Origin: Clostridia bacterium
GTDB lineage: Bacteria > Acidobacteriota > Terriglobia > Terriglobales > Acidobacteriaceae
Assembly (NCBI GenBank): GCA_035561135.1
Contig: DATMYA010000051.1
Coordinates: 1-64,000, forward strand
Length of the DNA stretch: 64,000 nt
Direction of reading: 5' to 3'
Below the pieces are notes generated by a model, which had not been told where the DNA came from, ran no database searches, and saw nothing but the letters and a program-made list of their open reading frames with translations. The position numbers were made by a program, and so were the translations under genes. Positions within the stretch are counted from its first letter, which is position 1, and each line of letters starts with the position of its first letter. Positions 24,218 to 51,199 of the stretch are shown here, in pieces.

Positions 24218-25606
24218 CTAATACGCGTTCTTACCGAACAACCCTGTCCAAACGGTCATGAGAATGATCCTCATGTCCAAACCGAAGCTCCAGTTTTGCA
24301 GGTAATAGAGATCGCATTCCACGCGCTTCTCGATGCTCGTATCGCCACGCCAGCCGTTCACCTGTGCCCAGCCTGTGATCCCGACTTTCAGGCGGTGCCG
24401 GTCGCCGTATTGCGACACTTCATTCATGAAGGTCTCTACAAAGTGCGGGCGTTCCGGGCGAGGTCCTACAATGCTCATGTCACCCGTTAGCACGTTCAAG
24501 AATTGCGGCAACTCATCCAGGCTTGTTTTTCGAAGCAACGCGCCGAAAGGTGTTTTCCGCGGATCGTCCTCTGTAGTCCACAACCTGTCACTCTCGCTGG
24601 GGGCGCTGACTCGCATCGTCCGGAACTTAAACATCGGAAACACGCGCCCATTCAGGCCGACTCGCTCCTGCACGAAGAATATGGGCCCCTTCGACGTCAA
24701 CTTGATCAAAATCGCAATGAGTACCGTGAGTGGCAGGCTCAGCAGGATCACCAGAGATGAAAATGCAATGTCGAATGCGCGCTTGATGAGCAGGTAACTC
24801 ATGGACTCGGCAGGTGTGGTGCCGAGGTCCAGCATGTGCAACTGACCGACCTGGAACAGCTTGTCGCGAATAATGACGCCTTGCCCAAGATCGACGACCA
24901 CGCGTGTGGGCATGCTCAGGTTTTTCAATGCGCTCATGATCGCGGGGATCTCGATGAACCGATCAGGCGGCACCGCCAGCACGATGTCGTCAACCGCACC
25001 CGACAATTGCAATTCGTTAATCTCGCTCAGGTCGTGAACAGGTGCATCGCGCACGACCGTGTCCTCGCCTGGGAGCCGCAGGTAAGCAACCACCTCGCAC
25101 TGAAACGAGCTCCTCTTGAGACGCGCGATAGCACGACGAGAAAAGGTGTCTGTGCCGACGATCAACAAGCGAAGAGGGCGATGCTGCCGGCCTTCCGTAC
25201 AAACGATCAAGCGGAACGCCGCACGGAGCGCCACCACAAGCAGCAGTAGCCACACGCTGCTTAGCAAAAAGAAGGCGCGAGAGAACATGGCGGTTCTGTA
25301 AAAGAACAGCACGGCGAAGCAGAGCATGTAAGTCGCACCGGATGCCTTCAGCGCCGCGCGAACTCCCGTCCGCTCTACAAAGAGTTCCTCTACGCTTGTA
25401 ATGCCGTAATGCTCCGAGGCCATCGCCCACGCCATGGTGAGGAACGCCAGGAGAAAGACGTATTCGGGCAATGAGTATTGCTGGACCGCACCTAGCCAGG
25501 GTTGTAGATAGAAACGCGAGAACGCGGCAAGGAGAAATGCGATTGCCGGTAGCACGTAGCACAAGCCGCGCAGATAAAATTTGTATAGATTCAGCCTTCG
25601 CAACAT
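24218..25606 (-). CDS. Polyprenyl-phosphate sugar-1-phosphate transferase (WcaJ/GumD-type initiating enzyme)
   Basis: A 462-residue inner-membrane enzyme that transfers a sugar 1-phosphate from a nucleotide sugar to undecaprenyl phosphate, the first step of polysaccharide repeat assembly. It has four N-terminal membrane segments (about 5-120), a central CoA-binding/Rossmann-like region (about 135-265), and a re-entrant membrane helix beginning KRAFDIAFSSLVILLSLPL. The C-terminal catalytic domain has KGPIFFVQERVG, FPMFKFRTM, TSLDELPQFLNVL and SIVGPRPERPHF. The ATG at 25606 is chosen for its GGAG at 7 nt. The gap from rmlD is 118 bp, the largest inside the operon. Confidence 0.92.
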   Translation of the reverse strand: MLRRLNLYKFYLRGLCYVLPAIAFLLAAFSRFYLQPWLGAVQQYSLPEYVFLLAFLTMAWAMASEHYGITSVEELFVERTGVRAALKASGATYMLCFAVLFFYRTAMFSRAFFLLSSVWLLLLVVALRAAFRLIVCTEGRQHRPLRLLIVGTDTFSRRAIARLKRSSFQCEVVAYLRLPGEDTVVRDAPVHDLSEINELQLSGAVDDIVLAVPPDRFIEIPAIMSALKNLSMPTRVVVDLGQGVIIRDKLFQVGQLHMLDLGTTPAESMSYLLIKRAFDIAFSSLVILLSLPLTVLIAILIKLTSKGPIFFVQERVGLNGRVFPMFKFRTMRVSAPSESDRLWTTEDDPRKTPFGALLRKTSLDELPQFLNVLTGDMSIVGPRPERPHFVETFMNEVSQYGDRHRLKVGITGWAQVNGWRGDTSIEKRVECDLYYLQNWSFGLDMRIILMTVWTGLFGKNAY

Positions 25607-25724
25607 GACGGTGCTCCACGAGAGCGGCACCCCAGGCGTAAGTTCTCTGGAGGCTACCGAATGGCCAAACTACAAGGAAAATTTGGGGAATTGATTGCGC
25701 CGCACCACGAGGGAAGGTCCGGTA

Positions 25725-29645: not shown

Positions 29646-30234
29646 AGAGCTCGCTTTCCACAATTTCGCAAAGGATGTGACCGGTAAGGATGTGAGCCTC
29701 CTGAATTCGGGGCGTGTCGCTGGAAGGGATACAGAGACAGTAGTCGACAGCGGAACGAAGCAGTCCGCCGTCGAACCCGGCGAACCCAATCCGGAGCATC
29801 CCCTTCTCCTCGGCAACCCGCATGGCCTGGAGCACATTGCGCGAGTTCCCGCTTGTGCTGATACCGAGAGCAACATCGCCCGGCACCGCCAATCCCTGCA
29901 ACTGGCGCGCAAAAACGTGGTCAAAGGAATAGTCGTTCCCGATCGCCGTCAGTGCCGAGGTGTTCGCATTCAACGCAAGGCCAGCCAAGGCCGTGCGCTC
30001 CTGCAGGTACCGCCCGGTCAGCTCTGCCGCGAGATGCTGTGCATCGGCCGCGCTGCCGCCGTTACCGAAGAAGAAGACTTTCCCGCCTTTTCGGAGAGAG
30101 TCGGCCATGAGCATGCCGACTTCAGTAACCTGTTGCAGGAATCGAGCATCGTTCAAAAGCAATTGCTTGACGGCGATGCTTTCTTCGATTCGTTTCGCTG
30201 CCAGGACCGCATTATGCGCCGCTGCGGGCTTCAT
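29623..30234 (-). CDS. gmhA: Sedoheptulose 7-phosphate isomerase
   Basis: GmhA isomerises sedoheptulose 7-phosphate to D-glycero-D-manno-heptose 7-phosphate. The 203-residue SIS-domain protein has FFGNGGSAADAQHLAAELTGRY and ALGISTSGNSRNVLQAM, the phosphosugar-binding loops, and the C-terminal IQEAHILTGHILCEIVE with the catalytic His. The ATG at 30234 is preceded by GGAGGG, so the longer upstream frame is not used. It overlaps hddA by 23 nt upstream and gmhB by 23 nt downstream. Confidence 0.94.
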   Translation of the reverse strand: MKPAAAHNAVLAAKRIEESIAVKQLLLNDARFLQQVTEVGMLMADSLRKGGKVFFFGNGGSAADAQHLAAELTGRYLQERTALAGLALNANTSALTAIGNDYSFDHVFARQLQGLAVPGDVALGISTSGNSRNVLQAMRVAEEKGMLRIGFAGFDGGLLRSAVDYCLCIPSSDTPRIQEAHILTGHILCEIVESELFANSDIS

Positions 30235-31243
30235 GCACCCTCCACGTCTGCAGTCCAGTCGGCTCGAACGCGAACTCGGTTGGAGTGGCTCCCATTCTGC
30301 GCAAGGCTTCCGCGACCTTGTGTTTCTTCTCAAACTCGCAGTAGAACATCATGTATCCGCCGCCGCCTGCACCTGTGATTTTTCCGCCGAGGGCACCGTG
30401 CTTCCGAGCTTCCTCGTACATTTCGTCGATATGTGGATTGCTGATGCGCGTCGACATCTTCTTCTTGGTCTCCCACGCGCTATGCAGCAGATCGCCCATT
30501 TCATTGAGTTGGTGTCGCAGCAGCGCGTTCTTCATCGTCACCGCCAGCTCTTTCTGAGCGGCGAGCGCTGCGACCGTATCTCCCTGCTGTTCGGTGAAAC
30601 GGCTGGTCTGATCTTCAATGATGCGGTCTGAACGGCGTGTTGTGCCCGTGTAACACAGGAGCAGGTTGTGTTCGAGTTCGTTGCAAACGTCGGGCGTGAT
30701 CCGAAGCGGGTTCACGATAACGCGATCCTTCTCGAATTCGATAAAGTTGAAGCCGCCGAAACCAGCCGCGTACTGATCCTGCAATCCGCCCTTAATGCCG
30801 AGGTCTTCCCGCTCGATGCTGTATGCAAGTTGAGCCACCTCGTAGTTCGTGAGCGGAAGGCTCTTGAATTCCTTCACTAATCCGACTAGGGCGACCATCA
30901 GCGCCGACGACGAGCCCAAGCCGGAGCCCGGCGGCGCATCGCAGTGCAGGAAGATGTCGAAACCATGCGAGTTAAGTGCGCCTAATCTTTTCAGCGCGGC
31001 TTTGACCAGATCAAGCTTTCCATCAAAAACCAGATCCTGGCCGACTTCGAACTCCATCGAGAGATCAAGATCAACGGACTCGATTTTGATAATGCCATCG
31101 GGCCTGCTGCGAAGGCTTCCCCATGCGAAGTTGTCGATTGTGGCGTTCAAAACGCAACCGCCATGAGTTTGGGGATAAGGCGGCACATCCGTTCCTCCGC
31201 CAGCAAAGCTGACGCGGAGTGGTGCCTTGGCTCGAATGATCAT
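30212..31243 (-). CDS. hddA: D-glycero-alpha-D-manno-heptose 7-phosphate kinase (GHMP family)
   Basis: HddA phosphorylates D,D-heptose 7-phosphate at C1 with alpha configuration in the GDP-heptose branch. The 343-residue GHMP kinase has an N-terminal RAKAPLRVSFAGGGTDVPPY, the ATP loop PPGSGLGSSSALMVAL (about residues 105-120), and the C-terminal GAGGGGYMMFYC motif. The FAGGGTD and APPGSGLG-SS pattern is specific to the HddA/fucose-kinase subgroup. It overlaps hddC by 4 nt. The alternative ADP branch would use HldE, which is absent here. Confidence 0.92.
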   Translation of the reverse strand: MIIRAKAPLRVSFAGGGTDVPPYPQTHGGCVLNATIDNFAWGSLRSRPDGIIKIESVDLDLSMEFEVGQDLVFDGKLDLVKAALKRLGALNSHGFDIFLHCDAPPGSGLGSSSALMVALVGLVKEFKSLPLTNYEVAQLAYSIEREDLGIKGGLQDQYAAGFGGFNFIEFEKDRVIVNPLRITPDVCNELEHNLLLCYTGTTRRSDRIIEDQTSRFTEQQGDTVAALAAQKELAVTMKNALLRHQLNEMGDLLHSAWETKKKMSTRISNPHIDEMYEEARKHGALGGKITGAGGGGYMMFYCEFEKKHKVAEALRRMGATPTEFAFEPTGLQTWRVHEARSGA

Positions 31244-31968
31244 GACTGAAAGTGCTCCCTGAGCTCCGACTGGGCCCTTGTAAAGTCTTCCGGCACGCCT
31301 ATGTCAATGAAGTAGCCCGTCGTCTTGAAGCCGAGAAAACGGTCGCCGACGAGCGAAGGAAGTATCTCTTTTTCGAGCGAAACCTGCCTGCCTTGCGGAA
31401 TGAGATCTAGAACCTCTGGCTCAAATACATAAACTCCGCCGTTGATGAGCGAGCTTTGCGTGACATCAGCGTCGCCGCGTGCCTGCTTCTCTACAAATGC
31501 GCGGACGCAACCGTCATTATCAAGTCGCACGGAGCCGTAGCGCCCACTGTGCGAAACCGCCGGGAGCGCCATGGTCACGAGAGCGCGCCTCTGTCTGTGT
31601 GCTGAAACCATCGTCGCGATATCACAATCAACGATGGAGTCGCCATTCAGCAAGAGAAATGATCGCTTGCCGATCTTGTCCGCGGCTAGACTCAGCGCTC
31701 CCGCAGTTCCCTTCGGTTCGCCTTCGACAGAATAGTGGAGGTCCAAACCCCAGCGTCGTCCTTTGCCTGCCCAGCGCTGAATATATGAGCGCTTGAACCC
31801 GACGCATAAGATGACCTCTCGCACGCCGCAGTTCTTCAACTGCATGAGCAGGTACTCGAGGAATGGGCGGCCCCCAACGGGAGCCATGCTCTTTGGACCA
31901 GAGTGGTACACGGAACGAAGGCGCGTCCCCAGGCCACCGGCCAAAATCACTGCTGGCGTGTCATTCAT
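31240..31968 (-). CDS. hddC: D-glycero-alpha-D-manno-heptose 1-phosphate guanylyltransferase
   Basis: A 242-residue nucleotidyltransferase with the NTP-binding start VILAGGLGTRLRSVYHSGPKSMAPV and LLLNGDSIVDCD carrying the metal-binding Asp. The length and context next to hddA and gmhA point to HddC, which makes GDP-D-glycero-alpha-D-manno-heptose. A glucose-1-phosphate-type specificity cannot be excluded by sequence alone, but rmlA already fills that role in the cluster. Confidence 0.87.
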   Translation of the reverse strand: MNDTPAVILAGGLGTRLRSVYHSGPKSMAPVGGRPFLEYLLMQLKNCGVREVILCVGFKRSYIQRWAGKGRRWGLDLHYSVEGEPKGTAGALSLAADKIGKRSFLLLNGDSIVDCDIATMVSAHRQRRALVTMALPAVSHSGRYGSVRLDNDGCVRAFVEKQARGDADVTQSSLINGGVYVFEPEVLDLIPQGRQVSLEKEILPSLVGDRFLGFKTTGYFIDIGVPEDFTRAQSELREHFQS

Positions 31969-35177: not shown

Positions 35178-36446
35178 CTAAACGGTTCCCTTTGCTTCGG
35201 CCTGGGGCGTTATGGCTTCGCCCTGGAAGTCGCGCGAAAGCAACTTCACGAGAGCGGCTATTGTGCAAAACAATGCAAGGTAGTGCTGGCCTGCAAACGG
35301 AACATCCACGATATTTGCAAGCATGGTGGCCAGCAAGCCGACCCACAGCCCCAACGGTACTGCGGTCAGCGTTCTTGCAGCCAACCGATATGTTCTGACG
35401 ACGACCAGTCCCACGAGAGCGAAATAGGGTATGGCGCCAACAAGTCCGAGCTCTGAGAGCGAATTCAAAACGAAGTTGTGTGCTGTAAGTCGAATGCTAT
35501 CGATACTGAGCGCAGCCGTTAAATTGACAATCTGTCCTGGGCCGACCCCCAGCAACGGGTTCTCGAGGAAAGCATTCCAAGCTAGGCGGTAGATGTCAAA
35601 ACGATCAAAATCGGGCTGATTGATTCGTTCCATCAACAGAACGGTGTTTGCCGATACCATTTCGTCTGGTAATAACAGCAGAACCGCGGCAAGAACAACC
35701 ACAACAATTGCGATGTGCTTGAACTTGAGGCCGGCCCGCAACATCAAAGGCAATGACAGCACCGCTGATGCGATCAGCGCGAGAAACGCGCCTCTTGACA
35801 TGGCAATGAACAGCCCAAGCAGCATAAAGGCGCAGGCAACACCTGCGATCCACCGCCTCGCGCCACGCTCTCTCTTGGCCTGACCTGCCCCAATAGGAAA
35901 AAGAAACACAAGTATTGCGGCGATGTAGTTGTGCTGGCCCATAGGAAGCTCAACGAGGTTCTTGAGCGCACGCGCCGTATCTTCTCCTTCGAAGACAGCA
36001 CTCCATCCAGAGACAAAGCCATAAAGCAGCATTAGTCCTGTCACGCCGCCGAAGAGCACCAGAGTAGAAAGAATTTTCCGCTCATAACCGGGCAGAAATG
36101 CAAGAACATAAACGAGTATTCCAAAGGCGAAGACTTTCGTTGAGACCAGGCTTTTGAAGATGTCGTTTGGGTTCGCGAAAGACGACATCATATGCGCAAG
36201 CAGGCAAACTACGGCAATGCTAAGAAACGTTGTATCCGTAAGGTCGGGCCAGTACTGCCCAAACACCATCTCGACACTCAGCACGCACACGAGCGCCAGC
36301 ATGACGACGTCAAAAACAAGAATGACAGGGGCGCGCTCCGACAACGCGACATTGGTACCGCCCAACAGTAGCGAAAACAGGAGCAGTGGTAGCGGCCACC
36401 AGGGGCGGCGGATGTCGGCTGGCCGTGGTTGTGCAATATTCGCCAT
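35178..36446 (-). CDS. O-antigen ligase/polymerase-like membrane protein (Wzy/WaaL family)
   Basis: A 422-residue protein with about 11-12 membrane segments and a large periplasmic loop near residues 285-345. That loop contains RLAWNAFLENPLLGVGPGQIVN followed by TAHNFVLNSLSELGLVGAIPY, the hallmark of the Wzy_C/O-antigen ligase superfamily (His-Asn in the loop). In this setting, beside Wzz and Wzx, it is more likely the repeat-unit polymerase Wzy than the ligase WaaL. The ATG at 36446 starts 7 bp after the wzz-like stop; an upstream extension overlaps wzz. Confidence 0.82.
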   Translation of the reverse strand: MANIAQPRPADIRRPWWPLPLLLFSLLLGGTNVALSERAPVILVFDVVMLALVCVLSVEMVFGQYWPDLTDTTFLSIAVVCLLAHMMSSFANPNDIFKSLVSTKVFAFGILVYVLAFLPGYERKILSTLVLFGGVTGLMLLYGFVSGWSAVFEGEDTARALKNLVELPMGQHNYIAAILVFLFPIGAGQAKRERGARRWIAGVACAFMLLGLFIAMSRGAFLALIASAVLSLPLMLRAGLKFKHIAIVVVVLAAVLLLLPDEMVSANTVLLMERINQPDFDRFDIYRLAWNAFLENPLLGVGPGQIVNLTAALSIDSIRLTAHNFVLNSLSELGLVGAIPYFALVGLVVVRTYRLAARTLTAVPLGLWVGLLATMLANIVDVPFAGQHYLALFCTIAALVKLLSRDFQGEAITPQAEAKGTV

Positions 36447-36453
36447 CGCCCGG

Positions 36454-37785
36454 TTACTTCTCTTGTGTGACGACAAGCTTGCGGCTACCGAAGCGAGCCA
36501 GAAGTGGACGGACTGCGCTGCCTGCCTCTCGTAACAATACTTTTCGAGAGTCGTCATCCGCCATGCGAGCCCATCGTTCTCCCGCAAGAACCCAAAGCGA
36601 TGCGCACATGAAGCAGAGTGCCGTTCCTACAAGGACGAGAATGGTTCGAGGTGGGCCGGATTTTTTTTCGGGAACAACGGCGGCATCCAGAACCTTCACA
36701 GTTGGGATTTCTTTTGCTTCTTGTACCTTCGCCAGTTCGTACTCTTTCGTCAGGGTTTCGAACACCGCCTCCTGAATTTTCGTTCGGCGAAGGAGATCAA
36801 CATAGGTCACGCCAATGATGGGAAGGCTGCGAATGGACGGGTATGAACCGGAGGCGTCGGGACCCGCGAGGCTCGCATCAGAGCCGCGCAACTTCTCAAC
36901 TTGTTTCTTTAACTCTGCGATTCTCGCCTGAACAGATCGGACGCGTATATTGTTCGGTGTGTAAATGGCTTCCAGCCCGCTGAGTTCAGTTTGGGCAGCC
37001 ATGAGTTGCCCTTGCAGCAAGGCTGCCGCCTCGACCATCGCGCGCCCCTGCTCTTTGATGTCGATGGTCGTATTCTTACTCGAAAACTGGCTCAGGTCTT
37101 TAGCCGCTATATCCAACTCCTGCTTTACCGCTCGCAGCCGTTCATCGAGGAAAACGCGTTCCCGGTGCGCCGACGAGGTGCTCAGTTGGGCGACAGAGCG
37201 ATCCAGTTGCGCAACGTATTCTTGTGCCATCTCAGCCGCTCGCTTGGGGTCCTTGTCGGTTACGCTGATCGTGATGATTCCGCTCTTTCTGTCTTCCGAA
37301 ATCTCGGTTTTCTGCCCGAGTTTTTTTCGTGCGGTCTCGTAATACTTAGTTCGATAAATTTTTCGTAAATCGAATTTGTTGATCAGTCCATCCCGGACAG
37401 TGCGACTGTGCAGAATACCCACAAAGAGATCGCCCGTATTCTTGATTCCGAAAAGACTGCTGGCAAGTCCTCCCATGGCTGGGCTGCCTCCCGAAAAGGC
37501 AGACAGCATCGCCAGAGGATTCGAGGAGGCACCGTCCGGCGGCATCAACTGAGTCTGCGCACGATACCAATTTGGAATACACAGAGAAATGACAACGGAC
37601 GCGAGGAGCCCGTATGTGGCAGCACGATACAGTGTTCGCCGGCGTCGCCACAGCAGCCGTATGTAGCTCATCTCTCGTTCTCGGGGATCCGAGCCGCCAT
37701 TGTTCACCGCGCCCTCGTTCGGCGCTTGTCTCTCCTGGCTAGCGTCAAATACAGTGCTTTCCATGTCTCCATCTCGGCGGATCAC
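36454..37785 (-). CDS. Wzz-type polysaccharide chain-length regulator
   Basis: A 443-residue inner-membrane protein: a cytoplasmic N-terminus of about 50 residues, a first membrane helix (about 57-75), a long periplasmic coiled-coil region (about 150-330), and a second membrane helix near 400-420 preceded by the proline-rich KVLDAAVVPEKKSGPPR motif typical of Wzz/PCP proteins. No C-terminal tyrosine-kinase domain follows, so it is not a Wzc. The GTG at 37785 overlaps the preceding stop (GTGA); the alternative is ATG 37764. It sets polymer length together with the Wzy-like protein encoded directly downstream. Confidence 0.87.
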   Translation of the reverse strand: MIRRDGDMESTVFDASQERQAPNEGAVNNGGSDPREREMSYIRLLWRRRRTLYRAATYGLLASVVISLCIPNWYRAQTQLMPPDGASSNPLAMLSAFSGGSPAMGGLASSLFGIKNTGDLFVGILHSRTVRDGLINKFDLRKIYRTKYYETARKKLGQKTEISEDRKSGIITISVTDKDPKRAAEMAQEYVAQLDRSVAQLSTSSAHRERVFLDERLRAVKQELDIAAKDLSQFSSKNTTIDIKEQGRAMVEAAALLQGQLMAAQTELSGLEAIYTPNNIRVRSVQARIAELKKQVEKLRGSDASLAGPDASGSYPSIRSLPIIGVTYVDLLRRTKIQEAVFETLTKEYELAKVQEAKEIPTVKVLDAAVVPEKKSGPPRTILVLVGTALCFMCASLWVLAGERWARMADDDSRKVLLREAGSAVRPLLARFGSRKLVVTQEK

Positions 37786-40874: not shown

Positions 40875-42410
40875 TTAAGCACCCGCCGAATTAGGCCATT
40901 GCGCTGTTCCATGGCGCATCACATTGCGGAATCCGCCAACATCCCCCCACTTCAGCGCACAAACGAGAGCCCCTATGCACCCGAAGAGAAACGATGTGGC
41001 ACGTACCACAGGTGTTCCGCCATTGATCCAGTGGAGCACTAATCCCACGGCGAGTATCGGCGTGGAACAAACGAGGGGTTTGAGAATCGCGCCCTTGATT
41101 AGCTTCTGAACATCGACTCGTATGTCAGCAGTTTTCCGCATGTTGTACAAGAGGTGCCCTAACACTCCCGCTACTGCACCTGCGAGAGTCCCAATGGCAA
41201 CACCAATCGCACCATAAAAGGGAGCAAGCACCACACTCACAGCCAGATTGGTCAAACCTTCCAGAAGCGGAGTCATTATGACTAGCCGCTGTTGTCCAGT
41301 GCCTACCAGCAGGACGGAATAGGGCGTCATGGAAAGGCGAATAATATTTGCCACGATCAGTATCTGAAGCAACAGGAAACCGTGCGCGGCATACGCACCA
41401 CCTACCCACAACCTCAGAACCCAATCACCGAGCAATATGAGTGGGAGTCCGGTGAACAGAAGGAGGAACATGCCGTAACGACTTGTCACCTGCAACAATG
41501 TGCCGAGTTCCTCTGTAGCGCCACGAGCGTGCAGCACAGCAGAGTTTGGAATCATTGCGCTAAAAATCGCATTCTGCAAACCTGCGATGAACGTTACGAG
41601 ACTCGCCGCTATTGAATAGTAGGCTACTGCGCCAAATTGATAATGCGCAACAAGCGTGACATTCAGTCCCGTTATCAACAGCATGGCGAAGGACCACACT
41701 GTGAGGCTCAGGCAATATGCGCTGAGTTCCTTCAGGTGGCGCTTGGAAGCCAGGGATGGAGTCAGGCGCATAGAGGGCGCGAGACGCCGGAACATGACGT
41801 ACTGAACGATGTACGCAGCGACATTCACCAGCGCCATGCTAGCCGCGATTTGCGGGATCGTGCCGCCGTGTCGTACAACAACAATCAGCAGGACCGCGCT
41901 GATGATCCGCGATGTCGCGATGATGCCGGCGGGAACTTCGTTTCTTTGCAGGCCGACAAAGACACCGTTGAAAACGGACATCGGCAGCCCTATTGCCAGC
42001 GACGATCCAACCAGGAGCAGCGCAAGGCGCGCATCGTTGAATAACGCAGGGGGCATCTCGCCAAACAACCTCGGCATGAGGGCCGCGCCTGCGATAAGCG
42101 CGATAACCGCCAGCGCGCCGGCAACCGTAAGCACCACGAACGCGGTATTCACCATGCGATCGCGGAAGTCCGCGTCCCCGCGCTCGTTGGCGTGAGCGAC
42201 GAACCGGCTTACGGCCGTCTGAATTCCAAAATCGAGATAGCCGACGTACGCGCTCAGTTGGAGTACGAGGGCCCACACGCCATATGTCTCTGGCGACATG
42301 GCGCGCGTAAGAAATGGCGGTACTGCCAGCGCAACGATTGCCGAACTGCTGCCGCGTACCACGTTCGCGACAGCATTCTTCACCAGCGTTATCTTCTCGT
42401 CGGGTACCAA
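40875..42410 (-). CDS. wzx: Wzx-type polysaccharide flippase
   Basis: A 511-residue protein with about 14 hydrophobic segments of the MATE-like/polysaccharide_synt superfamily, predicted to flip the undecaprenyl-linked repeat unit to the periplasm. The N-terminus after the start (EKITLVKNAVANVVRGSSSAIV, then LTRAMSPETYGVWALVLQLSAYVGYLDFGIQTAVSRF) is typical of Wzx. The frame runs upstream into the Wzi gene, but TTG at 42410 has AAAGGA 5 nt before it and sits 14 bp after the previous stop, so I choose it. Confidence 0.87.
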   Translation of the reverse strand: MVPDEKITLVKNAVANVVRGSSSAIVALAVPPFLTRAMSPETYGVWALVLQLSAYVGYLDFGIQTAVSRFVAHANERGDADFRDRMVNTAFVVLTVAGALAVIALIAGAALMPRLFGEMPPALFNDARLALLLVGSSLAIGLPMSVFNGVFVGLQRNEVPAGIIATSRIISAVLLIVVVRHGGTIPQIAASMALVNVAAYIVQYVMFRRLAPSMRLTPSLASKRHLKELSAYCLSLTVWSFAMLLITGLNVTLVAHYQFGAVAYYSIAASLVTFIAGLQNAIFSAMIPNSAVLHARGATEELGTLLQVTSRYGMFLLLFTGLPLILLGDWVLRLWVGGAYAAHGFLLLQILIVANIIRLSMTPYSVLLVGTGQQRLVIMTPLLEGLTNLAVSVVLAPFYGAIGVAIGTLAGAVAGVLGHLLYNMRKTADIRVDVQKLIKGAILKPLVCSTPILAVGLVLHWINGGTPVVRATSFLFGCIGALVCALKWGDVGGFRNVMRHGTAQWPNSAGA

Positions 42411-42424
42411 GGAATCCTTTAGCT

Positions 42425-44902
42425 CTACGGAGCAGAGGTCGTGCCGGGTTTTGGCGAATGTCCGGGCCGGTAAGATATCTGAAGCCACGTGGCGAAGTTC
42501 GAGTTAGTGCCACTCGACAGCATCGGGAAATTCCAGCGTTCGTACTGTGTAAATGCTGAAACCTCGTAATTGCTCTTCACGCGGAATTCAGCTTTCGCCG
42601 AGAAGTTGTGAAGGTTGCCGCCTTTCAGGTACTCGGGATTAGCGATCTGGTGCCGGTATCCAAACTGAATCCGATTGAAAGGCGAGATCCAGTACGTGCT
42701 CCACAATTGCAACCCGCGGCTATCGCGCCCTGCCCAGGTTGCGATCAGTTGTCTGTTGTTTGTATAGGAGTCGCGGTAAACGCCGTTCCAGTACGCGAAG
42801 TGTCCGCCGCGAACCTGGGTTGGCGTGCCCGGAATATCTGTGTAAACGGCTTCCGCTCTGAAATCGACCTTCGGCAGTCCCGGCAGTTGCGGGATGTAAA
42901 TACCGGGGTTCATGGCAGCCCTGTGCGGCGCAGCTAGCGCGGACGGGTCATCATCGGTCATGGAGTCGTTGTACAGAACCAACCATTTCCGCAAGCCTGG
43001 TACTCGGTAACTGAAATCGAACCCGCCGCGTCGATCGCCAGCGTCGTTGCCCGGCAAGTCCGCGTTAGGATGATCCCCCACTGAGAAGTATGTCTTAAAG
43101 AAAAGTCTCGGCGTGAGTGGAGTTCCGGCTCCCGCAAAAATGACTGTGCGAGAGAAACCCAATTCAAGGTTCGGCGTGGGCTTGAAGCTGATCTTCTCAC
43201 CGTGAATCATCGGGCGTGCCGGTCCAACATGGCCTGAAAGCTTGCCGAGGAACATCTCGCTGCGGATCGGGCCCATCTTGCTAAATATCCAAGGAAGCAG
43301 GATTGGCGCGGTTCGCGTCATGCGGAACATGTAGATAGACTCCGCATTGTTGCTGAACAGCATGGCCTGCCCCCGTCCGGGGCCCCACCAAAGCGGTTGC
43401 TTGCCGAACGAGAAGCTGATGTCTCGATACTGCACGGCGACTGAGGCCTCCACAATGTGCAGGCGGTCGAGCGAGTTAGCCGAAGGGCCCGGAACGATCG
43501 GCTTGACGTCAACGTCTGAGATCGTCTGCTGCAATTGGAGTGAATAAGGAATATTGGGCGCGGAGTGCTGGTATTCGCCGCGGAATGAAATTGCTGCCGG
43601 GCCAGCAACCGCTCGGCCGGAGACACCGAGGGTGGAATTGAACCCCTCACCGTACGGTCTACCGTCATCGTTTATTACGGTTTGTCCGAAGTGTAGGCCG
43701 TCGGTTAATGGTCTTCCCTGGATCCCGCCGACTCGGGTGTAGATGGAATCGATTTCGGCGCCAAGATTTGTATCTCCATCGAGACGGCGAGATTCCAGCG
43801 CGAACTCGTTTGAGAGTGCCTTGACCAGCTTCTCCAAATCCGCGTCGTCCGGACCAAGTTCCGACTCAGCAGAGGCCTCTTGCAGGAGTCGTGCGCATTC
43901 CATTCGGGTCCACGGTCGCAGGCCCAGGAATGCCGACTGTATGTACCCCCTGGCAATCAGGCGATCGAATACCGGATAGATCCAGCTGTCCATCGGCACG
44001 GAGGGCGATGCCATGTTGGCGGAAGAGCGTTTTGTTTCCCCGGTTTCCTTTACGAACGTGCCGATCCCCTCGCCGCCGAGAGACGTGTCATGATGCGCGC
44101 GGTAGATCTGCCGTCCAACCAGCCAACCGATCGTGCTACCGATCAATACATCCGACGGAAAGTGCTGCTGCCCGATTACGCGCGCGGTGCTGATTGCCGC
44201 CGCGCCGCCGTAGGCCAGCAATTTCGTTCCTGTTCCCGGGTATTCGTGGGCGATGACGCTTGCGGCAGCCCATGAAACCGAAGCGTGGTCGGAAGGAAAG
44301 GACGCGCCACCAGACCAGAACCGTCCCGCGCGATTATCCTCAAGAGGCCGCGGGCGGCGCGTTACCAGCTTGAGAGCGGTTGTAACCGCGGCCGCATTCG
44401 TCACCGCTTCCCCAGTCAATATTCCGGTCTCGCGCAGATGGTCACTATCTGTGAAGTGGCCCCAACCATAGAACAGTCCGCTAAGGGCCACGGCCGAGAA
44501 GGCTCCAACGTCAGAGAACTGCCTTGCCCTGCGACTGGTGTTCTCGGTGGGAGAAAACCTCCGCATTGTCGACTCGTCCGATGCGATTAACCCGCCGGTA
44601 GCGAGCCCGATCGGCAGCAGCCACTTCGTGTCGCGTGCTTTCAGCCGCAGGGGAGACGTCCAGATCGCCTGCTGATCTTCGCCGAAACGCTTCAGGTACG
44701 AGACCACGAACACTCGTTTTGGTTTCGGCGTCGGCGTTGCTTGTGACGAGTCGGACTGTGGTTTCTGATGAACAGGGTCCGCAGTCTGCGCCACCTCTTC
44801 TTGGGCGAGGATGCTCACCGGAGAAAGCAGCAACAGCACTGTCATCCAAAGGACGACTCTCCCGCTGAACTTCGAGGACACTGCAATGACGGCCCAATTC
44901 AT
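42425..44902 (-). CDS. PAP2 phosphatase - Wzi capsule-assembly fusion protein
   Basis: An 825-residue exported protein with two parts. After a signal segment (about 12-33), residues about 95-265 form a PAP2 acid-phosphatase domain with all three motifs: K178-x6-R185-P186 (KLVTRRPRP), PSDH at 203-206, and R241-x5-H247-x3-D251. Residues about 300-825 match the Wzi capsule-assembly beta-barrel type, with QPLWWGPGRGQAMLFSNN and many alternating beta-strand patterns up to a C-terminal aromatic-containing strand. PAP2 proteins dephosphorylate lipid pyrophosphates, and Wzi anchors polymer at the outer membrane. The start overlaps the SLBB gene by 1 nt. Confidence 0.82.
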   Translation of the reverse strand: MNWAVIAVSSKFSGRVVLWMTVLLLLSPVSILAQEEVAQTADPVHQKPQSDSSQATPTPKPKRVFVVSYLKRFGEDQQAIWTSPLRLKARDTKWLLPIGLATGGLIASDESTMRRFSPTENTSRRARQFSDVGAFSAVALSGLFYGWGHFTDSDHLRETGILTGEAVTNAAAVTTALKLVTRRPRPLEDNRAGRFWSGGASFPSDHASVSWAAASVIAHEYPGTGTKLLAYGGAAAISTARVIGQQHFPSDVLIGSTIGWLVGRQIYRAHHDTSLGGEGIGTFVKETGETKRSSANMASPSVPMDSWIYPVFDRLIARGYIQSAFLGLRPWTRMECARLLQEASAESELGPDDADLEKLVKALSNEFALESRRLDGDTNLGAEIDSIYTRVGGIQGRPLTDGLHFGQTVINDDGRPYGEGFNSTLGVSGRAVAGPAAISFRGEYQHSAPNIPYSLQLQQTISDVDVKPIVPGPSANSLDRLHIVEASVAVQYRDISFSFGKQPLWWGPGRGQAMLFSNNAESIYMFRMTRTAPILLPWIFSKMGPIRSEMFLGKLSGHVGPARPMIHGEKISFKPTPNLELGFSRTVIFAGAGTPLTPRLFFKTYFSVGDHPNADLPGNDAGDRRGGFDFSYRVPGLRKWLVLYNDSMTDDDPSALAAPHRAAMNPGIYIPQLPGLPKVDFRAEAVYTDIPGTPTQVRGGHFAYWNGVYRDSYTNNRQLIATWAGRDSRGLQLWSTYWISPFNRIQFGYRHQIANPEYLKGGNLHNFSAKAEFRVKSNYEVSAFTQYERWNFPMLSSGTNSNFATWLQISYRPGHSPKPGTTSAP

Positions 44903-47775
44903 CAGAAAGTAGTTGCCACGCGTGCTGCAATTGCGACCGACGAGGTCACCTGTGCCGCATTCAGCAGATTACGCCAGAAGGTGTTTTCGGTGGCAATGCG
45001 CTCCGGAACGACAAGAGAGTCGCCCGGCTGCAACACGGTTCCCATGACTCCGCCAGACCACCATCCCCCGTTGCCGGCGCCAATGACTGAACCATCGGCG
45101 CGTACTACAAAAATTGCCTTCTTGTTTCCGAACTCCGTTGCTCCACCAGCCTTTCGCAAATACCACTGCGCGTTCTTGCCGGGCACGTAGGTGATGGCCG
45201 AAGGGCTGTTCACCTGACCATTCACAAGCACGAAATCCGGGCGCTTCGGGATGATGAGCACATCGCCTGCTCGTATCTCGACGTCAGCGGGAGTGTTCTC
45301 CCATTTACCAAGATCGGCACTGATACGGATGACCTGCCGGCCCGCCGGAGCCTCTTCTTTTAAGCGCGTCAAAATCTGCTGTTGCTGCTGCATGAATGCG
45401 GTGGTCATCACAGCCTGTTCCGCTCCAGCACCCTTAGGCTTGGCGCCCTCTATACGACGGATGAGCGCCTGGCGAGCCTGGCGGTCCATCTGTCGTACTT
45501 GCGTGCGTTGCAGCACGGCGCCTGCGGGATAGGCGCTCTCCCGGAAGCCTCCGGCGCGCCGCAGCAGCGAACTGAGCCGTTCGCTTTCCTGGATTCCATA
45601 GGTTCCGGGATGCTGGACTTCGCCGGATACCGTGACCGCACCGCCGATGTCTTCCCAACCTGCTAATTGGCGAACGGTAAGCACGTCTCCCGGTTTCAAC
45701 CGAATATCCATATCTGCCACACCATCCAGCGCTTTGCTGATCTCGACGACGCGGTGGTCACGCTGCACGCGCTCGCCGCCCTCGATTTCGTAGCTGGCCA
45801 AGTCCGCAGTCTGCCGGTAGGCGCTGCGCCTGAATCCACCAGCCATTCGCACTAATTCTGCGGTGCTCATTCCATCCGTAAGCGGATACTCTCCCGGGCG
45901 CAAAACTTCGCCGAAGATAGCGACCTTCGGGGCGTCCACTTCGTATCGGCCAAACACGCGTACGGTATCGAAGGGTTGCAACATCACAGTAGCTTTGTGT
46001 TGCATCACCTCGCTAAGGCTGAACTGCAAGACCATCGGGCGGAAGTCCGGCGGTTGTAACCGAATGATCTCTGCTTGAGTTGACGGTTCTGGAAGCAGGT
46101 CCTTATAAGACCGGATTAGGTCGCTGACCTGAATGTCTTTCCTGAATGGGTACTTACCCGGCCGCGTAACATGCCCGTCGAGATAAACGGTTTCGTTACT
46201 ATAGGCAGGGATCGAGGAGATAGTCACTCGATCTCCGTCCTGCAGTTTGAAGGACACTAGAGCCTGCTTCAGCGAGGCGATGTCGGTTCCTTCGGGAAGA
46301 TCGAGGCTAAGCATTACGCGACGTTCGTGCGCTTGCACGCGCTCAACCGCAATCTGGCGCAACGAGCCAGCCACCAGCACACCGCCCGCAAGTTCAAGCG
46401 CCTCGTAAAGTTCAGTTTCGCCCTTCAATTCATATAAGGCTGGACGGCGTACCATTCCGGCGACACTTACCTGTGGGCCCATTGGAGGCACCAGAATTGT
46501 GTCCCCCGCTTCCAGTCTTCCCACTTCGTCACTGACCCCATTGAGCAGAAGGTTGTAGATATCTACTTCCCGGATAAGCTCTTTGCCACGGTAGTGCTTT
46601 ACGGTTCTGAGCGAGCCTCGCGCCGTTGGACCGCCCGCCGCATAGAGTGCGTTCAGTGGCGTCGAAAGCGAACTAATGTTATAAGCGCCCGCCCGCACGA
46701 CATCGCCGACAACGTAGATCCGCACGGTACGCAAACGGCCGAGCGAGACATCCACGCCGACATCCTGCAATTGAGTGCGCAGGACCTTTCCTACAAACTC
46801 ACGGGCTTGATCGAGTGTTTTCCCGCCGATCTGTACGGTGCCAACCTCTGGCAGTGCAATTCGTCCTTCTCGATCGACCGTCAGGCTAAGTTTTCGCGTC
46901 AGGCTGCCCCAGAGTTCGACCGTCAATCCGTCTCCGGGACCTAGCACATAGTCAGGTCCAGCGGGCAGGTCCATCTGCTTCGGATCTGGCGCCATGCCCT
47001 TGCGGAACATGTTCGCACCAAACCGCTCGAGCTTTACCGTGGGATCAAGCGTCTGAGTGTAAAGGTCCTCTAGAGATTGCAGACTGCGATGCGGCGGTCT
47101 GCGATGACGCAAGAGCACTTGTTCGTTGTCACGCTCCTTCGCAACACGCGGAAACTCTGGAACGGTCACCCGCGGACGACCAGCGTTTTGAGCACGCGAG
47201 GATTCTTTGCCATCAAGCGTAAGGTCCTCTTCACCATCTTCTTCGAAGTCATCCGGCCAGTTGCCGGGGCGTCGTTCGTTCTTGTCTGTGTAGGGGGTCT
47301 CGCTTTCGTCGGAGCCTGCAGGCCGCTTCAATTCAGGGTCGTCCGGTTCTATGTAACCCCGCTTCAACAGTTCTTCGGTGATGCGACTGCGCAGCTCTGC
47401 ATCCTGCTCAATACGGCGGAGCAGCAGCGAATCGGGTACATCGCTCTCCTGAACAACTCTTCCCTGCTCGCGCAGTACGCGCGCGATTTCAATCTTGACC
47501 TGGGAGAGCAACTCAGGGTCCTGCTGCAACATTGCGATGATCCGCGACGCCGGTAGTTCATACCTGTTTCCGTAGGACGGCGAGGACGCTGTGCTCTTGC
47601 CGGTTTTGGGGCGGCCGCTCGGGGCACTACTCTCGTCCTGCGCGTGCAACGGAGCGAGCGCCAGCACAGCAACTATGAATAGCAGAACGCCAATGGCGAG
47701 CGAACGGCGAGGCGAAGATATCTTTTGAGATGGCAGGCTGTTCACGCTAATGACTCCATACCGATTCAACTGCAT
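44902..47775 (-). CDS. Polysaccharide export protein with multiple SLBB domains (Wza-like)
   Basis: A 957-residue exported protein. It has a signal peptide (about 26-46, ending LHA-Q) and a charged variable region to about residue 250. The poly-export domain begins PAGPDYVLGPGDGLTVELWGSLTRKLSL, followed by several SLBB repeats each of the form VSVAGMVRRPALYELKGETELYEALELAGG, VYLDGHVTRPGKYPF, VAIFGEVLRPGEYPL and VTVSGEVQHPGTYGI. No lipobox cysteine is seen, unlike E. coli Wza, and the protein is much longer. It likely forms the outer-membrane exit channel for the polymer. The first gene after the NusG-like regulator, 66 bp downstream. Confidence 0.9.
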   Translation of the reverse strand: MQLNRYGVISVNSLPSQKISSPRRSLAIGVLLFIVAVLALAPLHAQDESSAPSGRPKTGKSTASSPSYGNRYELPASRIIAMLQQDPELLSQVKIEIARVLREQGRVVQESDVPDSLLLRRIEQDAELRSRITEELLKRGYIEPDDPELKRPAGSDESETPYTDKNERRPGNWPDDFEEDGEEDLTLDGKESSRAQNAGRPRVTVPEFPRVAKERDNEQVLLRHRRPPHRSLQSLEDLYTQTLDPTVKLERFGANMFRKGMAPDPKQMDLPAGPDYVLGPGDGLTVELWGSLTRKLSLTVDREGRIALPEVGTVQIGGKTLDQAREFVGKVLRTQLQDVGVDVSLGRLRTVRIYVVGDVVRAGAYNISSLSTPLNALYAAGGPTARGSLRTVKHYRGKELIREVDIYNLLLNGVSDEVGRLEAGDTILVPPMGPQVSVAGMVRRPALYELKGETELYEALELAGGVLVAGSLRQIAVERVQAHERRVMLSLDLPEGTDIASLKQALVSFKLQDGDRVTISSIPAYSNETVYLDGHVTRPGKYPFRKDIQVSDLIRSYKDLLPEPSTQAEIIRLQPPDFRPMVLQFSLSEVMQHKATVMLQPFDTVRVFGRYEVDAPKVAIFGEVLRPGEYPLTDGMSTAELVRMAGGFRRSAYRQTADLASYEIEGGERVQRDHRVVEISKALDGVADMDIRLKPGDVLTVRQLAGWEDIGGAVTVSGEVQHPGTYGIQESERLSSLLRRAGGFRESAYPAGAVLQRTQVRQMDRQARQALIRRIEGAKPKGAGAEQAVMTTAFMQQQQQILTRLKEEAPAGRQVIRISADLGKWENTPADVEIRAGDVLIIPKRPDFVLVNGQVNSPSAITYVPGKNAQWYLRKAGGATEFGNKKAIFVVRADGSVIGAGNGGWWSGGVMGTVLQPGDSLVVPERIATENTFWRNLLNAAQVTSSVAIAARVATTF

Positions 47776-47841: not shown

Positions 47842-48369
47842 TCAATTCAGTTTTTCCAGGTCAGCAACATCCACTTCAACTGACACTGCTCGCATGATGG
47901 CGTCAATGTTCAGCACGACTCGGTAAGCATTCTTCTTACGGATCAGGACGCCTTCGCTGCTGGCAAGCGGACCACGCCGCACCCGCACACGCTCTCCGAT
48001 CTTTAAATACGGATGTGGCTCTGCGTTCAGCCCCGAAATTGCATGGCGCAGGCGCGCGATCTCGTCGTCTGCAATCGCCACAGGAGGGCCGTTGAAAGAT
48101 ACAAAACGATGAACGCTCGCAAGACCCAGCACCCGCAGTCGCTCGGAGAGCGGAATATGCACAAAGACATAGCCGGGAAAGAGTGGTAGCTGGACCTGAG
48201 CATTACGGTCTTTCCAACGCCGAACCGTCTCGTATAGCGGGAGATAATACTTGACCTGCTTCAGGTCGAGTTGTGCCGCGACCTGCTTCTCGTGCCTGGG
48301 CAGCGTGCAAGCTACGTACCAGCGCGCCTCAACGGTTTGTTCGGTGTGTTGATTACTTGCTTCGTTCAT
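47842..48369 (-). CDS. NusG/RfaH-like transcription antiterminator (UpxY type)
   Basis: A 175-residue NusG paralogue. The NGN domain (about 15-110) has ARWYVACTLPRHEKQVAAQLD and LPLFPGYVFVHIPL. The KOW domain (about 118-170) has KIGERVRVRRGPLASSEGVLIR. Genome-core NusG normally sits by secE/rplK; this copy heads a polysaccharide operon, the position of RfaH/UpxY-type specialised antiterminators. It probably allows RNA polymerase to read through the about 24-kb operon. ATG 48369 is used; a GTG at 48393 would add eight residues. Confidence 0.88.
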   Translation of the reverse strand: MNEASNQHTEQTVEARWYVACTLPRHEKQVAAQLDLKQVKYYLPLYETVRRWKDRNAQVQLPLFPGYVFVHIPLSERLRVLGLASVHRFVSFNGPPVAIADDEIARLRHAISGLNAEPHPYLKIGERVRVRRGPLASSEGVLIRKKNAYRVVLNIDAIMRAVSVEVDVADLEKLN

Positions 48370-48865
48370 GCGGCTTACACAGGGTACGCACACAGCTTCG
48401 CCCCGTCACTTACAGGTACTCGTGACCTGACCTGAACAGAACCTTTGCATGGGGGAGAGAGACTCGCGAACTGAACGCCCGCAGAAAGCCGCAGAAGCTA
48501 ATGGAATGAGCTCTGCATCGCCAGTACTCAACTGAATATCGGCCACCCAGTTCCAACGCGATCAATGCACCACGTTCGGGGCAAAGCCACTTGCTTCAGT
48601 ACTCGCGACTGCTTTCGAGGGTCAGTGTCTGACAACTATAGCTGAAAACTCTGTGACAAACATCATAAGTATTTGTGAGAGGGAAAGAAATAGCGAAGAT
48701 GCGACAAACCGAGCCGCCTGCTCTCGTATTCCCGAATAGGGAGCCGAATGCAAAGTAACGAATTAAATGGGAGCATTTTCTCGCTTCGACACTCTACAAT
48801 TCGGGTTCTCTTCAATCATTCCTTTTCGACTCCGCAACCATTCGTAATCGCGGAGAGGGGCCCTA
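48370..48865. other. Long divergent control region of the polysaccharide operon
   Basis: About 500 bp without a gene separates the NusG-like gene (minus) from the fibre-like gene (plus). On the minus strand a TATGAT -10-like hexamer lies at 48662-48667 with a poor -35; if used, the leader RNA would be about 290 nt. On the plus strand TACAAT (48795-48800) is a possible -10 and GGAGAGGGG precedes the ATG at 48866. The 8-mer CAGTACTC occurs twice (48522-48529 and 48597-48604). I found no match to the enterobacterial ops/JUMPstart element. Confidence 0.5.
48621..48633. promoter_or_regulatory. Short palindrome in the polysaccharide control region
   Basis: GTCAG-TGT-CTGAC is a perfect 5-bp inverted repeat with a 3-nt centre, about 250 bp upstream of the NusG-like gene and next to the candidate minus-strand promoter region. 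It could be an operator half-site pair. The arms are short, so chance is a real alternative. Confidence 0.25.
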
Positions 48866-51199
48866 ATGCACGCTATCCGGTCGCTCGCGGCCGTTCTCAT
48901 ACTTATTGCATCTATTACCCTGTCAGGCTTTGCTACTGGCGATCAACCCGTCCCACGGCTCATTCGTTACTCTGGCATACTTCGCACAACAGATGGTCAA
49001 CCGCGAACCGGCACTGTTGGAGTTACTTTCTCAATCTATGCAGATGAGCATGGCAGCTCTCCTCTTTTCATCGAGACCCACAGTCTCTCACTGGATGAGC
49101 ACGGTGCTTACGTTGCGCTGATTGGTTCGGAACACGTTGGCGGACTCGCTGCCGACCTATTCGCTGACGGCGAACCGCGGTGGCTTGCTGTACAGGTCGA
49201 GAGCGAGCCCGAAGACGCAAATCGCGTCTTACTTGTCAGCGTGCCCTACGCATACCGGGCAGCAGATGCAGAGACCTTGGGAGGCAAGCCGGCATCTGCA
49301 TATCTCCTTGCTCCAACGGATGGCACGGCCGGAACAAGCGTTAAGACTGTGTCGAACGCTCTTTCTGCATCCCTGCCTCTCAATGCACTCAACGGGGCGA
49401 CGAACGCAATCGCTAAATTCGTGGATGCCACAACTCTCGGCAATTCCACGATGTTAGAGAGCGCGCTTGGTGTCGGCGTCGGGACTACGAATCCCACCCA
49501 GCGGCTGGATGTAGCCGGACGAATGCTTCTCCGCGGTACGCCAGCGGCTGGGCCCGGACTCATGCTCGGCGATGATGCAGGAGCATCATCCGTTCTGATC
49601 GGCCAGTACGCAAACCAGACTGCGTCGCCGCTTGGTTTCTGGCATTCCGGGAAGCTGGCCATGTCACTCGACTCCAGCGGCAGGGTCGGAGTTGGCATTC
49701 CCTACCCTTATGAGCGCTTCGAAGTCGCAGGTCGCGCAAAGCTTCGCGCCGATGGCGACACTACGGGAGGCTTTTGGCTGACCGGCGCTGACGGCAATGG
49801 TCAGCTGTTCGTTGGGCAGGCCGGTGCTTCCAGCTACGACCCTTTTGGCGTTTGGCATAGCGGACGCTGGCGGTTCACTGTCGGCGCAAACGGCAATGTG
49901 GGAGTCGGGGTTGATCGGCCGTATGAGAAGTTCGAGGTTGCTGGCCGTGCGAAGTATCGTACCGACGGCGCAAATACAGCCGGTTTCTGGCTCACAGGAC
50001 CCGAGGGCAACGGCTCCCTCTTTGTAGGACAGGCGGGCACAACGAGTTCCGACCCATTCGGCGTTTTTCACGCCGGTGCTTGGCGGTTTGTTGTAACGGC
50101 AGCGGGTACGCTCGGCGTGGGGACGATGAACCCTTCCGCACAGCTTGAAGTTGTGCGTCCGGCGAACGCTTCATCAGCGGCAGCCATCTACGCTCACGAC
50201 GATGCCACGACTGAACTCTCCTACGGAGTGCGCAGCGAGACTGCAAGCGACACGGGCGTTGCGGTGCACGGCGTGGCGCTAGCAAAATCGGGCACGGCAA
50301 CGGGAATCTACGGCCGGACAAACGCTCCCGACGGCACAGCTATCAACGGCGAAGCCTACTCAAGCACCGGGCGAAGCTACGGCGTTCACGGAATCACGCG
50401 AAGCCCGCAAGGCATGGCGCTCGCTGGTGATGCCGTCGCTACCGGCGGGACCAGTTACGGCGTGTACGGCTCCACGGCCGGAGACGGCTACAGCGCTGGC
50501 GTGTACGGATTGGCCACATCGCAGATGGCGACGGCCAGCACCTACGGTGTATATGGAAAGGCAGCCAGCGCCAAAGGCATCGGCGCAATTGGGTACGCCT
50601 CTTCGATGACGGGATACACGAGCGGCATCTACGGCATGGTCGAGAGCGGCACGGGCACAGCGGGTGAGTTCAATAATTTTGCGGGAGGCACTGTGCTGCT
50701 TGGCCGCAGCGCGGGAATGAAAGTGTTTCGTGTCGATGGCTACGGAAAGGTGTTCGCCAACGGCGGAACGCAGGTCGGCGGCGCTGACTTTGCCGAGTCG
50801 GTGGCCGTCCTGGGCGCGCGTGAAAGCTACGCACCGGGAGACGTGCTTGTAATCGACGCCACGGGCGACCGACGCTTCGCACTAGCGTCTGAGACCTACG
50901 CTACCAACGTGGCAGGAATTTATTCGACCAAACCCGGCGTCTTGGGCACGCCGCACACATTGGACTCTGCGGAGATCGCGCAGGAAGTGCCGCTGGCGAT
51001 GATCGGGATCGTGCCGTGCAAGGCCAGCGCCGAGAATGGCGCGATACGCCGCGGCGATCTGCTCGTCACCTCCGCCACCCCGGGGCACGTGATGCGAGGT
51101 ACGGATCGCAGCAGATTGCTTGGCGCAATAGTTGGGAAAGCTCTGCAGCCGCTCAGTGCCGGCATCGGCGTGATCGAGTGCATGGTTACGCTGCAATAG
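48866..51199 (+). CDS. Secreted fibre-like repeat protein
   Basis: A 777-residue exported protein. A signal peptide (about 1-22) is followed by a beta-rich domain (27-140) with RYSGILRTTDGQPRTGTVGVTFSIY, a pattern frequent in acidobacterial exported proteins. Residues 203-415 are three tandem 71-residue repeats, each starting (V)GVG-x3-P-x2-R/K-L/F-x-VAGR and resembling phage tail-fibre shaft sequences. Residues about 445-640 are a tyrosine-glycine series (YGVYG, YGVHG, GIYG), suggestive of a beta-helical shaft. A C-terminal domain (about 665-777) contains VGGADFAESVAVLG. It may form a trimeric surface fibre. It is divergent from the polysaccharide operon. Function unknown. Confidence 0.68.
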   Translation: MHAIRSLAAVLILIASITLSGFATGDQPVPRLIRYSGILRTTDGQPRTGTVGVTFSIYADEHGSSPLFIETHSLSLDEHGAYVALIGSEHVGGLAADLFADGEPRWLAVQVESEPEDANRVLLVSVPYAYRAADAETLGGKPASAYLLAPTDGTAGTSVKTVSNALSASLPLNALNGATNAIAKFVDATTLGNSTMLESALGVGVGTTNPTQRLDVAGRMLLRGTPAAGPGLMLGDDAGASSVLIGQYANQTASPLGFWHSGKLAMSLDSSGRVGVGIPYPYERFEVAGRAKLRADGDTTGGFWLTGADGNGQLFVGQAGASSYDPFGVWHSGRWRFTVGANGNVGVGVDRPYEKFEVAGRAKYRTDGANTAGFWLTGPEGNGSLFVGQAGTTSSDPFGVFHAGAWRFVVTAAGTLGVGTMNPSAQLEVVRPANASSAAAIYAHDDATTELSYGVRSETASDTGVAVHGVALAKSGTATGIYGRTNAPDGTAINGEAYSSTGRSYGVHGITRSPQGMALAGDAVATGGTSYGVYGSTAGDGYSAGVYGLATSQMATASTYGVYGKAASAKGIGAIGYASSMTGYTSGIYGMVESGTGTAGEFNNFAGGTVLLGRSAGMKVFRVDGYGKVFANGGTQVGGADFAESVAVLGARESYAPGDVLVIDATGDRRFALASETYATNVAGIYSTKPGVLGTPHTLDSAEIAQEVPLAMIGIVPCKASAENGAIRRGDLLVTSATPGHVMRGTDRSRLLGAIVGKALQPLSAGIGVIECMVTLQ
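49472..50110 (+). repeat. Three tandem 213-bp coding repeats in the fibre-like gene
   Basis: Units 49472-49684, 49685-49897 and 49898-50110 each encode exactly 71 residues. Units 2 and 3 are the most alike (shared FEVAGRAK, GFWLTG, LFVGQAG, DPFGV); unit 1 is more diverged. Equal length with diverged sequence suggests old duplication under structural constraint. Confidence 0.9.

Follow-up and report, generated by a model that had tools for sequence, protein, structure and literature searches.

It is not yet fully understood how Gram-negative bacteria keep their capsule attached (PMC12220298). Escherichia coli K30 Wzi (2ynk), the outer-membrane lectin of group 1 capsules, shares with the protein described here an N-terminal helical bundle and an 18-strand barrel, and both are encoded by Wzx/Wzy loci that include an OPX gene. 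The N-terminal phosphatase domain of our protein is absent from E. coli Wzi; polymer binding by our protein is putative. Barrels of the EpsX type are without the helical bundle of the fusion. Table 1 of PMC9603273 reports Wzi homologues in the neighbourhood of OPX genes of every class.

The phosphatase part has its own relatives. YbjG, an undecaprenyl-pyrophosphate phosphatase of E. coli, carries the PAP2 motifs, including an SFPSDH identical to that of the fusion. It is an integral membrane protein with hydropathy values up to 2.3, whereas the PAP2 part of the fusion does not exceed 1.12. LpxE (6ebu), the lipid A 1-phosphatase, shares the PAP2 fold with the fusion. LpxE is a membrane-embedded, stand-alone enzyme, whereas the PAP2 domain of the fusion is soluble-like and tethered to a barrel. 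The class A acid phosphatases (PhoC/PhoN; 1d2t, 9qcj) are soluble, exported, PAP2-type enzymes that match the fusion weakly (E about 1e-3) and, unlike PAP2-Wzi, are not fused to an outer-membrane protein.

To our knowledge, the release of Wzy-made polymer from its lipid carrier is not settled. That Wzi occurs naturally joined to a phosphatase suggests that phosphate is removed during the handover of the polymer from that carrier or close to it, and the fusion may tie phosphate removal to polysaccharide assembly. We found no description of a PAP2-Wzi fusion in the open-licence papers searched. The architecture may already be catalogued in automated domain databases. Excerpts of two accounts of OPX/beta-barrel pairs (PMC9603273, PMC9601211) do not mention a PAP2 fusion, and the word "phosphatase" is absent from PMC9601211.

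Domain organization of the fusion protein

The fusion gene (protein P0001) occupies 42425..44902 on the minus strand of the window, by which we mean the whole 64,000-nucleotide stretch of soil-acidobacterium DNA that was analyzed. It starts with ATG and encodes 825 amino acids with no internal stop. The earlier note had described a single exported chain of this length with a PAP2 domain followed by a Wzi domain. We agree with this description: the reading frame is exact, a probable signal peptide can be recognized, and both Pfam profiles are matched well above their curated cut-offs. PAP2 (PF01569) matched residues 166-271 (E = 2.9e-19; 69.6 bits against a cut-off of 27.2) and Caps_assemb_Wzi (PF14052) matched residues 395-802 (E = 2e-108; 363 bits against 30.1), covering positions 7-390 of the 392 in the profile.

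All the parts of the protein are encoded on the minus strand. A probable Sec signal peptide takes up residues 1-34 (44801..44902); residues 15-34 are hydrophobic, and the end at SILAQ is a cleavage site placed by eye. Within the first 400 residues, this N-terminal segment alone exceeded a 19-residue Kyte-Doolittle mean of 1.6, with a peak of 2.08. The PAP2 phosphatase region, supported by the Pfam match, the fold match and the motifs, spans residues 60-275 (44078..44725). A linker of about 25-30 residues separates it from the Wzi part, which consists of a helical bundle at residues 299-378 (43769..44008), identified from the 2ynk alignment and four predicted helices, and a beta-barrel at residues 380-814 (42461..43765) with 18 predicted strands.

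We built an AlphaFold model of the fusion from an alignment of 29 proteins from the window and the related loci. Its confidence was moderate (pLDDT 72.5, pTM 0.66), while a fold from the single sequence reached only pLDDT 32 and was uninformative. The model shows helices all along the PAP2 part, another four ahead of the barrel, and then 18 strands. The predicted structure has the domain order that the earlier note had described, with the addition of the helical bundle, which that note did not cover. Residues 299-814 of the model aligned to residues 24-476 of the E. coli Wzi chain (2ynk) with Z 31 and rmsd 3.0 over 413 residues at 19% identity (VIA-align); the next-best barrel structure was far lower, at Z 18.1. 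Because this alignment begins at residue 299, the segment between PAP2 and the barrel is taken to be Wzi's own helical bundle. The VPMDSWIYP motif of the bundle hardly varies, and this holds for stand-alone Wzi relatives too. Thus, the model and the 2ynk match give the fusion both features of the Wzi family, the 18-strand barrel and the N-terminal bundle.

Residues 107-269 of the model aligned to LpxE (6ebu) with Z 15.2 over 150 residues (VIA-align), a value only a little higher than the top scores of about 14 that the documentation of VIA-align quotes for helical models lacking a clear match. The LpxE score by itself would be thin evidence, and it is the Pfam match and the motifs that carry the PAP2 assignment. 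Two other readings of the Wzi part were considered. An S-layer-homology domain at residues 299-374 (phmmer to 8bz2, E = 0.028) was dropped, because this region aligns with the Wzi bundle at high Z. An open translocon of the EpsX type is less likely, because the fusion has a helical bundle. A library of viral structures gave no useful match to the fusion.

Features and location of the PAP2 domain

All three PAP2 motifs are present, at the residues that the earlier note had named: K178-x6-R185-P186, PSDH at 203-206 and R241-x5-H247-x3-D251. Among 45 distinct fused proteins, R185, P186, S204, H206, R241, H247 and D251 are invariant, and K178 and P203 are each kept in 41. The mean identity of the PAP2 part among these proteins is 47%, and the median column holds its majority residue in 53% of rows. 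That note had also considered the Asp in PSDH to be atypical. The residue was read correctly, but it is not unusual, as the third position is variable in the fused relatives (Glu in 22, Asn in 13, Gly in 5, Asp in 3, Ala in 1 and Thr in 1) and E. coli YbjG has the same PSDH. We therefore rejected PSDH as an unusual feature.

The PAP2 part has a GRAVY of -0.17 and a best 19-residue mean of 1.12, and thus contains no helices of transmembrane grade. The 45 fused relatives are equally non-hydrophobic in this part (mean GRAVY -0.07). Comparatively, the 19-residue peaks of E. coli YbjG and PgpB reach 2.3-2.4, and YbjG has four non-overlapping peaks of at least 1.67. Judged by its composition, the PAP2 part is best seen as a water-soluble-like domain, not a membrane enzyme.

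In E. coli Wzi, the N-terminal bundle and the C-terminus face the periplasm, as seen from antibody access (PMC3791409). The PAP2 domain of the fusion should be periplasmic too, because it is placed before this bundle. By analogy with E. coli Wzi, we infer that it sits at the inner face of the outer membrane. An enzyme of the inner membrane is unlikely, given the low hydropathy and the short linker to an outer-membrane barrel.

The exopolysaccharide locus

The fusion gene belongs to an exopolysaccharide locus of the Wzx/Wzy type, which runs on the minus strand from 48.4 to 24.2 kb of the window. The locus is headed by a UpxY-type NusG-like antiterminator (47842..48393; NCBIfam NF033644, 122 bits against 100), followed by an OPX polysaccharide-export protein (44902..47775; Pfam Poly_export and several SLBB domains). 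The fusion comes directly after OPX, and the OPX stop and the fusion start share one base in a TGATG junction. Next downstream is a Wzx-like flippase (40875..42488; Pfam Polysacc_synt, E = 2e-15), whose listed GTG start overlaps the fusion gene; its real start may be further in. Then come a methyltransferase, an epimerase, a glycosyltransferase, a Wzz-like chain-length protein of the PCP type (36454..37785; Pfam GNVR above the cut-off, Wzz weak, and an NCBIfam BexC/CtrB/KpsE-like match below the cut-off) and a Wzy-like polymerase of the O-antigen ligase family (35178..36587; Pfam Wzy_C, E = 3.7e-17). Further glycosyltransferases and sugar-nucleotide genes follow, together with the initiating enzyme, a polyprenyl-phosphate hexose-1-phosphate transferase (24218..25630; Pfam Bac_transf, E = 1.2e-69).

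The locus also contains a GHMP kinase and a nucleotidyltransferase as a pair (30212-31968, minus strand), as in GDP-manno-heptose synthesis, and RmlA, RmlB and RmlD genes. These genes hint that the polymer may contain heptose and rhamnose. Divergent from the locus, at 48866-51199 on the plus strand, lies a gene for an exported-looking protein of 777 amino acids with no Pfam match, which has GIYG/GVYG-like repeats and a tail-fibre-like C-terminus. Its relatives flank the PAP2-Wzi gene in two other loci (L111 and L114).

The order UpxY-OPX-fusion-Wzz is conserved in several other genera. An OPX gene was found within 7 kb in 18 of the 29 fused loci, in 8 of the 31 loci with a stand-alone Wzi and in none of the 13 PAP2-only loci. 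The difference between fused and stand-alone Wzi is significant in a Fisher test that ignores kinship and truncated flanks (P = 0.009). No conserved neighbours were found for the stand-alone exported PAP2 relatives, and none of these 13 adjoins polysaccharide genes. In one genome (G121), one cluster (L107) carries a PAP2-Wzi fusion, and a second (L126, 7927-9770) has the order UpxY-OPX-Wzi-Wzz with a Wzi without PAP2. Because some exopolysaccharide clusters have a PAP2-less Wzi in the same slot, Wzi does not in general need the phosphatase.

Possible roles of the phosphatase

Our leading interpretation, to which we give about an even chance, is an outer-membrane Wzi, encoded in a Wzx/Wzy exopolysaccharide operon, whose periplasmic N-terminus bears an active-looking, soluble PAP2 phosphatase. 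Once the protein has been exported by Sec, its barrel would insert in the outer membrane like E. coli Wzi, and the phosphatase would be held at the inner face of this membrane, next to the OPX exit. H247 would act as the nucleophile, with H206 and D251 assisting, and the phosphate removed would come from a phosphorylated molecule that partners the polymer as it emerges. The likeliest target would be polyprenyl-pyrophosphate or a phosphate on the reducing end of the polymer, and the second choice would be lipid A or another outer-membrane phospholipid. Afterwards, the Wzi part would keep the completed polymer attached on the outer side.

The earlier note had suggested that the phosphatase is coupled to polymer attachment at the surface. 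A coupling to polysaccharide assembly is reasonable, because the domains are real, the protein has an export signal, the fusion recurs and its gene lies in an exopolysaccharide operon. A location at the surface is not supported, as the N-terminus of E. coli Wzi is periplasmic. We consider it very probable that the PAP2 part is catalytically active in the periplasm and not inert. Whether the phosphatase serves exopolysaccharide assembly itself seems evenly balanced to us, and the polymer or a polyprenyl carrier can be named as its substrate only tentatively. The cues to the substrate diverge among undecaprenyl-diphosphatases (NCBIfam), acid-phosphatase structures (sequence) and LpxE (fold). Of the 29 aligned relatives, 13 matched NCBIfam models of undecaprenyl-diphosphatases, more than matched any other kind of model (best E = 4e-9; scores far below the curated cut-offs). 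The best NCBIfam match of the fusion itself was acid phosphatase PhoC (E = 5e-4, far below the cut-off), and against the undecaprenyl-pyrophosphate phosphatase model PRK11837 it scored 16.2 bits, short of the cut-off of 229. Recycling of undecaprenyl pyrophosphate by the fusion, which the note had also mentioned, is possible. It does not need the fusion, because the source genome encodes a separate UppP, and the substrate would be hard to reach, because this lipid is in the inner membrane and the fusion is tethered in the outer membrane. In its most specific form, our interpretation would place a release step of the Acidobacteriaceae at the outer membrane: the phosphatase within the polymer-holding protein would detach the exported, Wzy-dependent polymer from the end that is linked through phosphate or pyrophosphate. 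This we consider improbable.

A rather unlikely alternative is an LpxE-like role, in which the domain would act near Wzi on the inner leaflet of the outer membrane, taking phosphate from lipid A or from a different phospholipid and so altering the surface charge for polymer holding. LpxE was the best PAP2 match both in the structure list (6ebu) and to the A1 profile (E = 0.0038). Lipid A is found in the very membrane to which the domain is tethered, and the fusion is the sole PAP2 match, as well as the sole Wzi match, in the source genome. However, the match in fold says nothing on the substrate, the soluble-like domain differs from the membrane-embedded LpxE, and the operon links the fusion to exopolysaccharide rather than to lipid A genes.

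It is also conceivable, but unlikely, that the domain is a general periplasmic acid phosphatase of the PhoC/PhoN kind, which scavenges phosphate and is attached to Wzi merely for retention in the envelope. The nearest solved structures by single sequence are indeed secreted class A acid phosphatases, the NCBIfam match points to PhoC, and soluble-looking, exported stand-alone relatives exist without polysaccharide neighbours. These PhoC and acid-phosphatase matches are weak, however, and a mere scavenger does not fit well with a domain that is stably fused and often encoded near exopolysaccharide export genes.

It is very unlikely that the PAP2 part has lost catalysis and serves only for binding or as structural support beneath the barrel. 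Four of the 45 fused relatives miss K178, four miss P203, and many Wzi relatives do without PAP2, but H206, H247, D251, R185 and R241 never vary in a domain whose median column is conserved in about half of the rows.

Recurrence and history of the fusion

The weakest alternative, an artefact of sequencing or assembly joining two genes, which the earlier note had allowed for, is refuted by the relatives: no point in its support was found, and the same architecture recurs in about 40 (nearly full-length, counted by hand) of 120 separately assembled genomes of the Acidobacteriaceae, the family of the window, and in 15 of the 35 loci of a scan of genome contigs, including isolates of Edaphobacter and Granulicella. 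All of these 35 loci came from records titled as acidobacterial. Matches to the protein were found in 100 of the 120 family genomes, and those without the fusion have Wzi alone, PAP2 alone or both apart. Outside the family, a sample of 199 genomes of the phylum yielded Wzi-like loci of which none matched PAP2. Among 11 plasmid records, none covered 80% of the fusion; ten matched parts of the Wzi barrel only and one also matched the bundle.

On a tree of the Wzi domain, the fused state requires at least six changes. This pattern fits either a gain that was lost again repeatedly or more than one gain. The tree of the PAP2 domain requires three changes, and its deep branches are weak. A clade of stand-alone, exported-looking PAP2 proteins (L099-L104), with no polysaccharide genes near them, is nested among the fused PAP2 domains, which suggests fission of the fusion. 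Among the fused proteins, the PAP2 and Wzi distances are correlated (Mantel r = 0.82; 0 of 2000 shuffles), which is what a stable, joint inheritance of the two domains would produce.

Two single loci differ in their arrangement. In L031 (7860-10476), the fusion is split across two overlapping frames, possibly by a frameshift in a metagenome assembly. In L098 (6815-9900), a stand-alone PAP2 gene lies beside a stand-alone Wzi gene, and the two are convergent.
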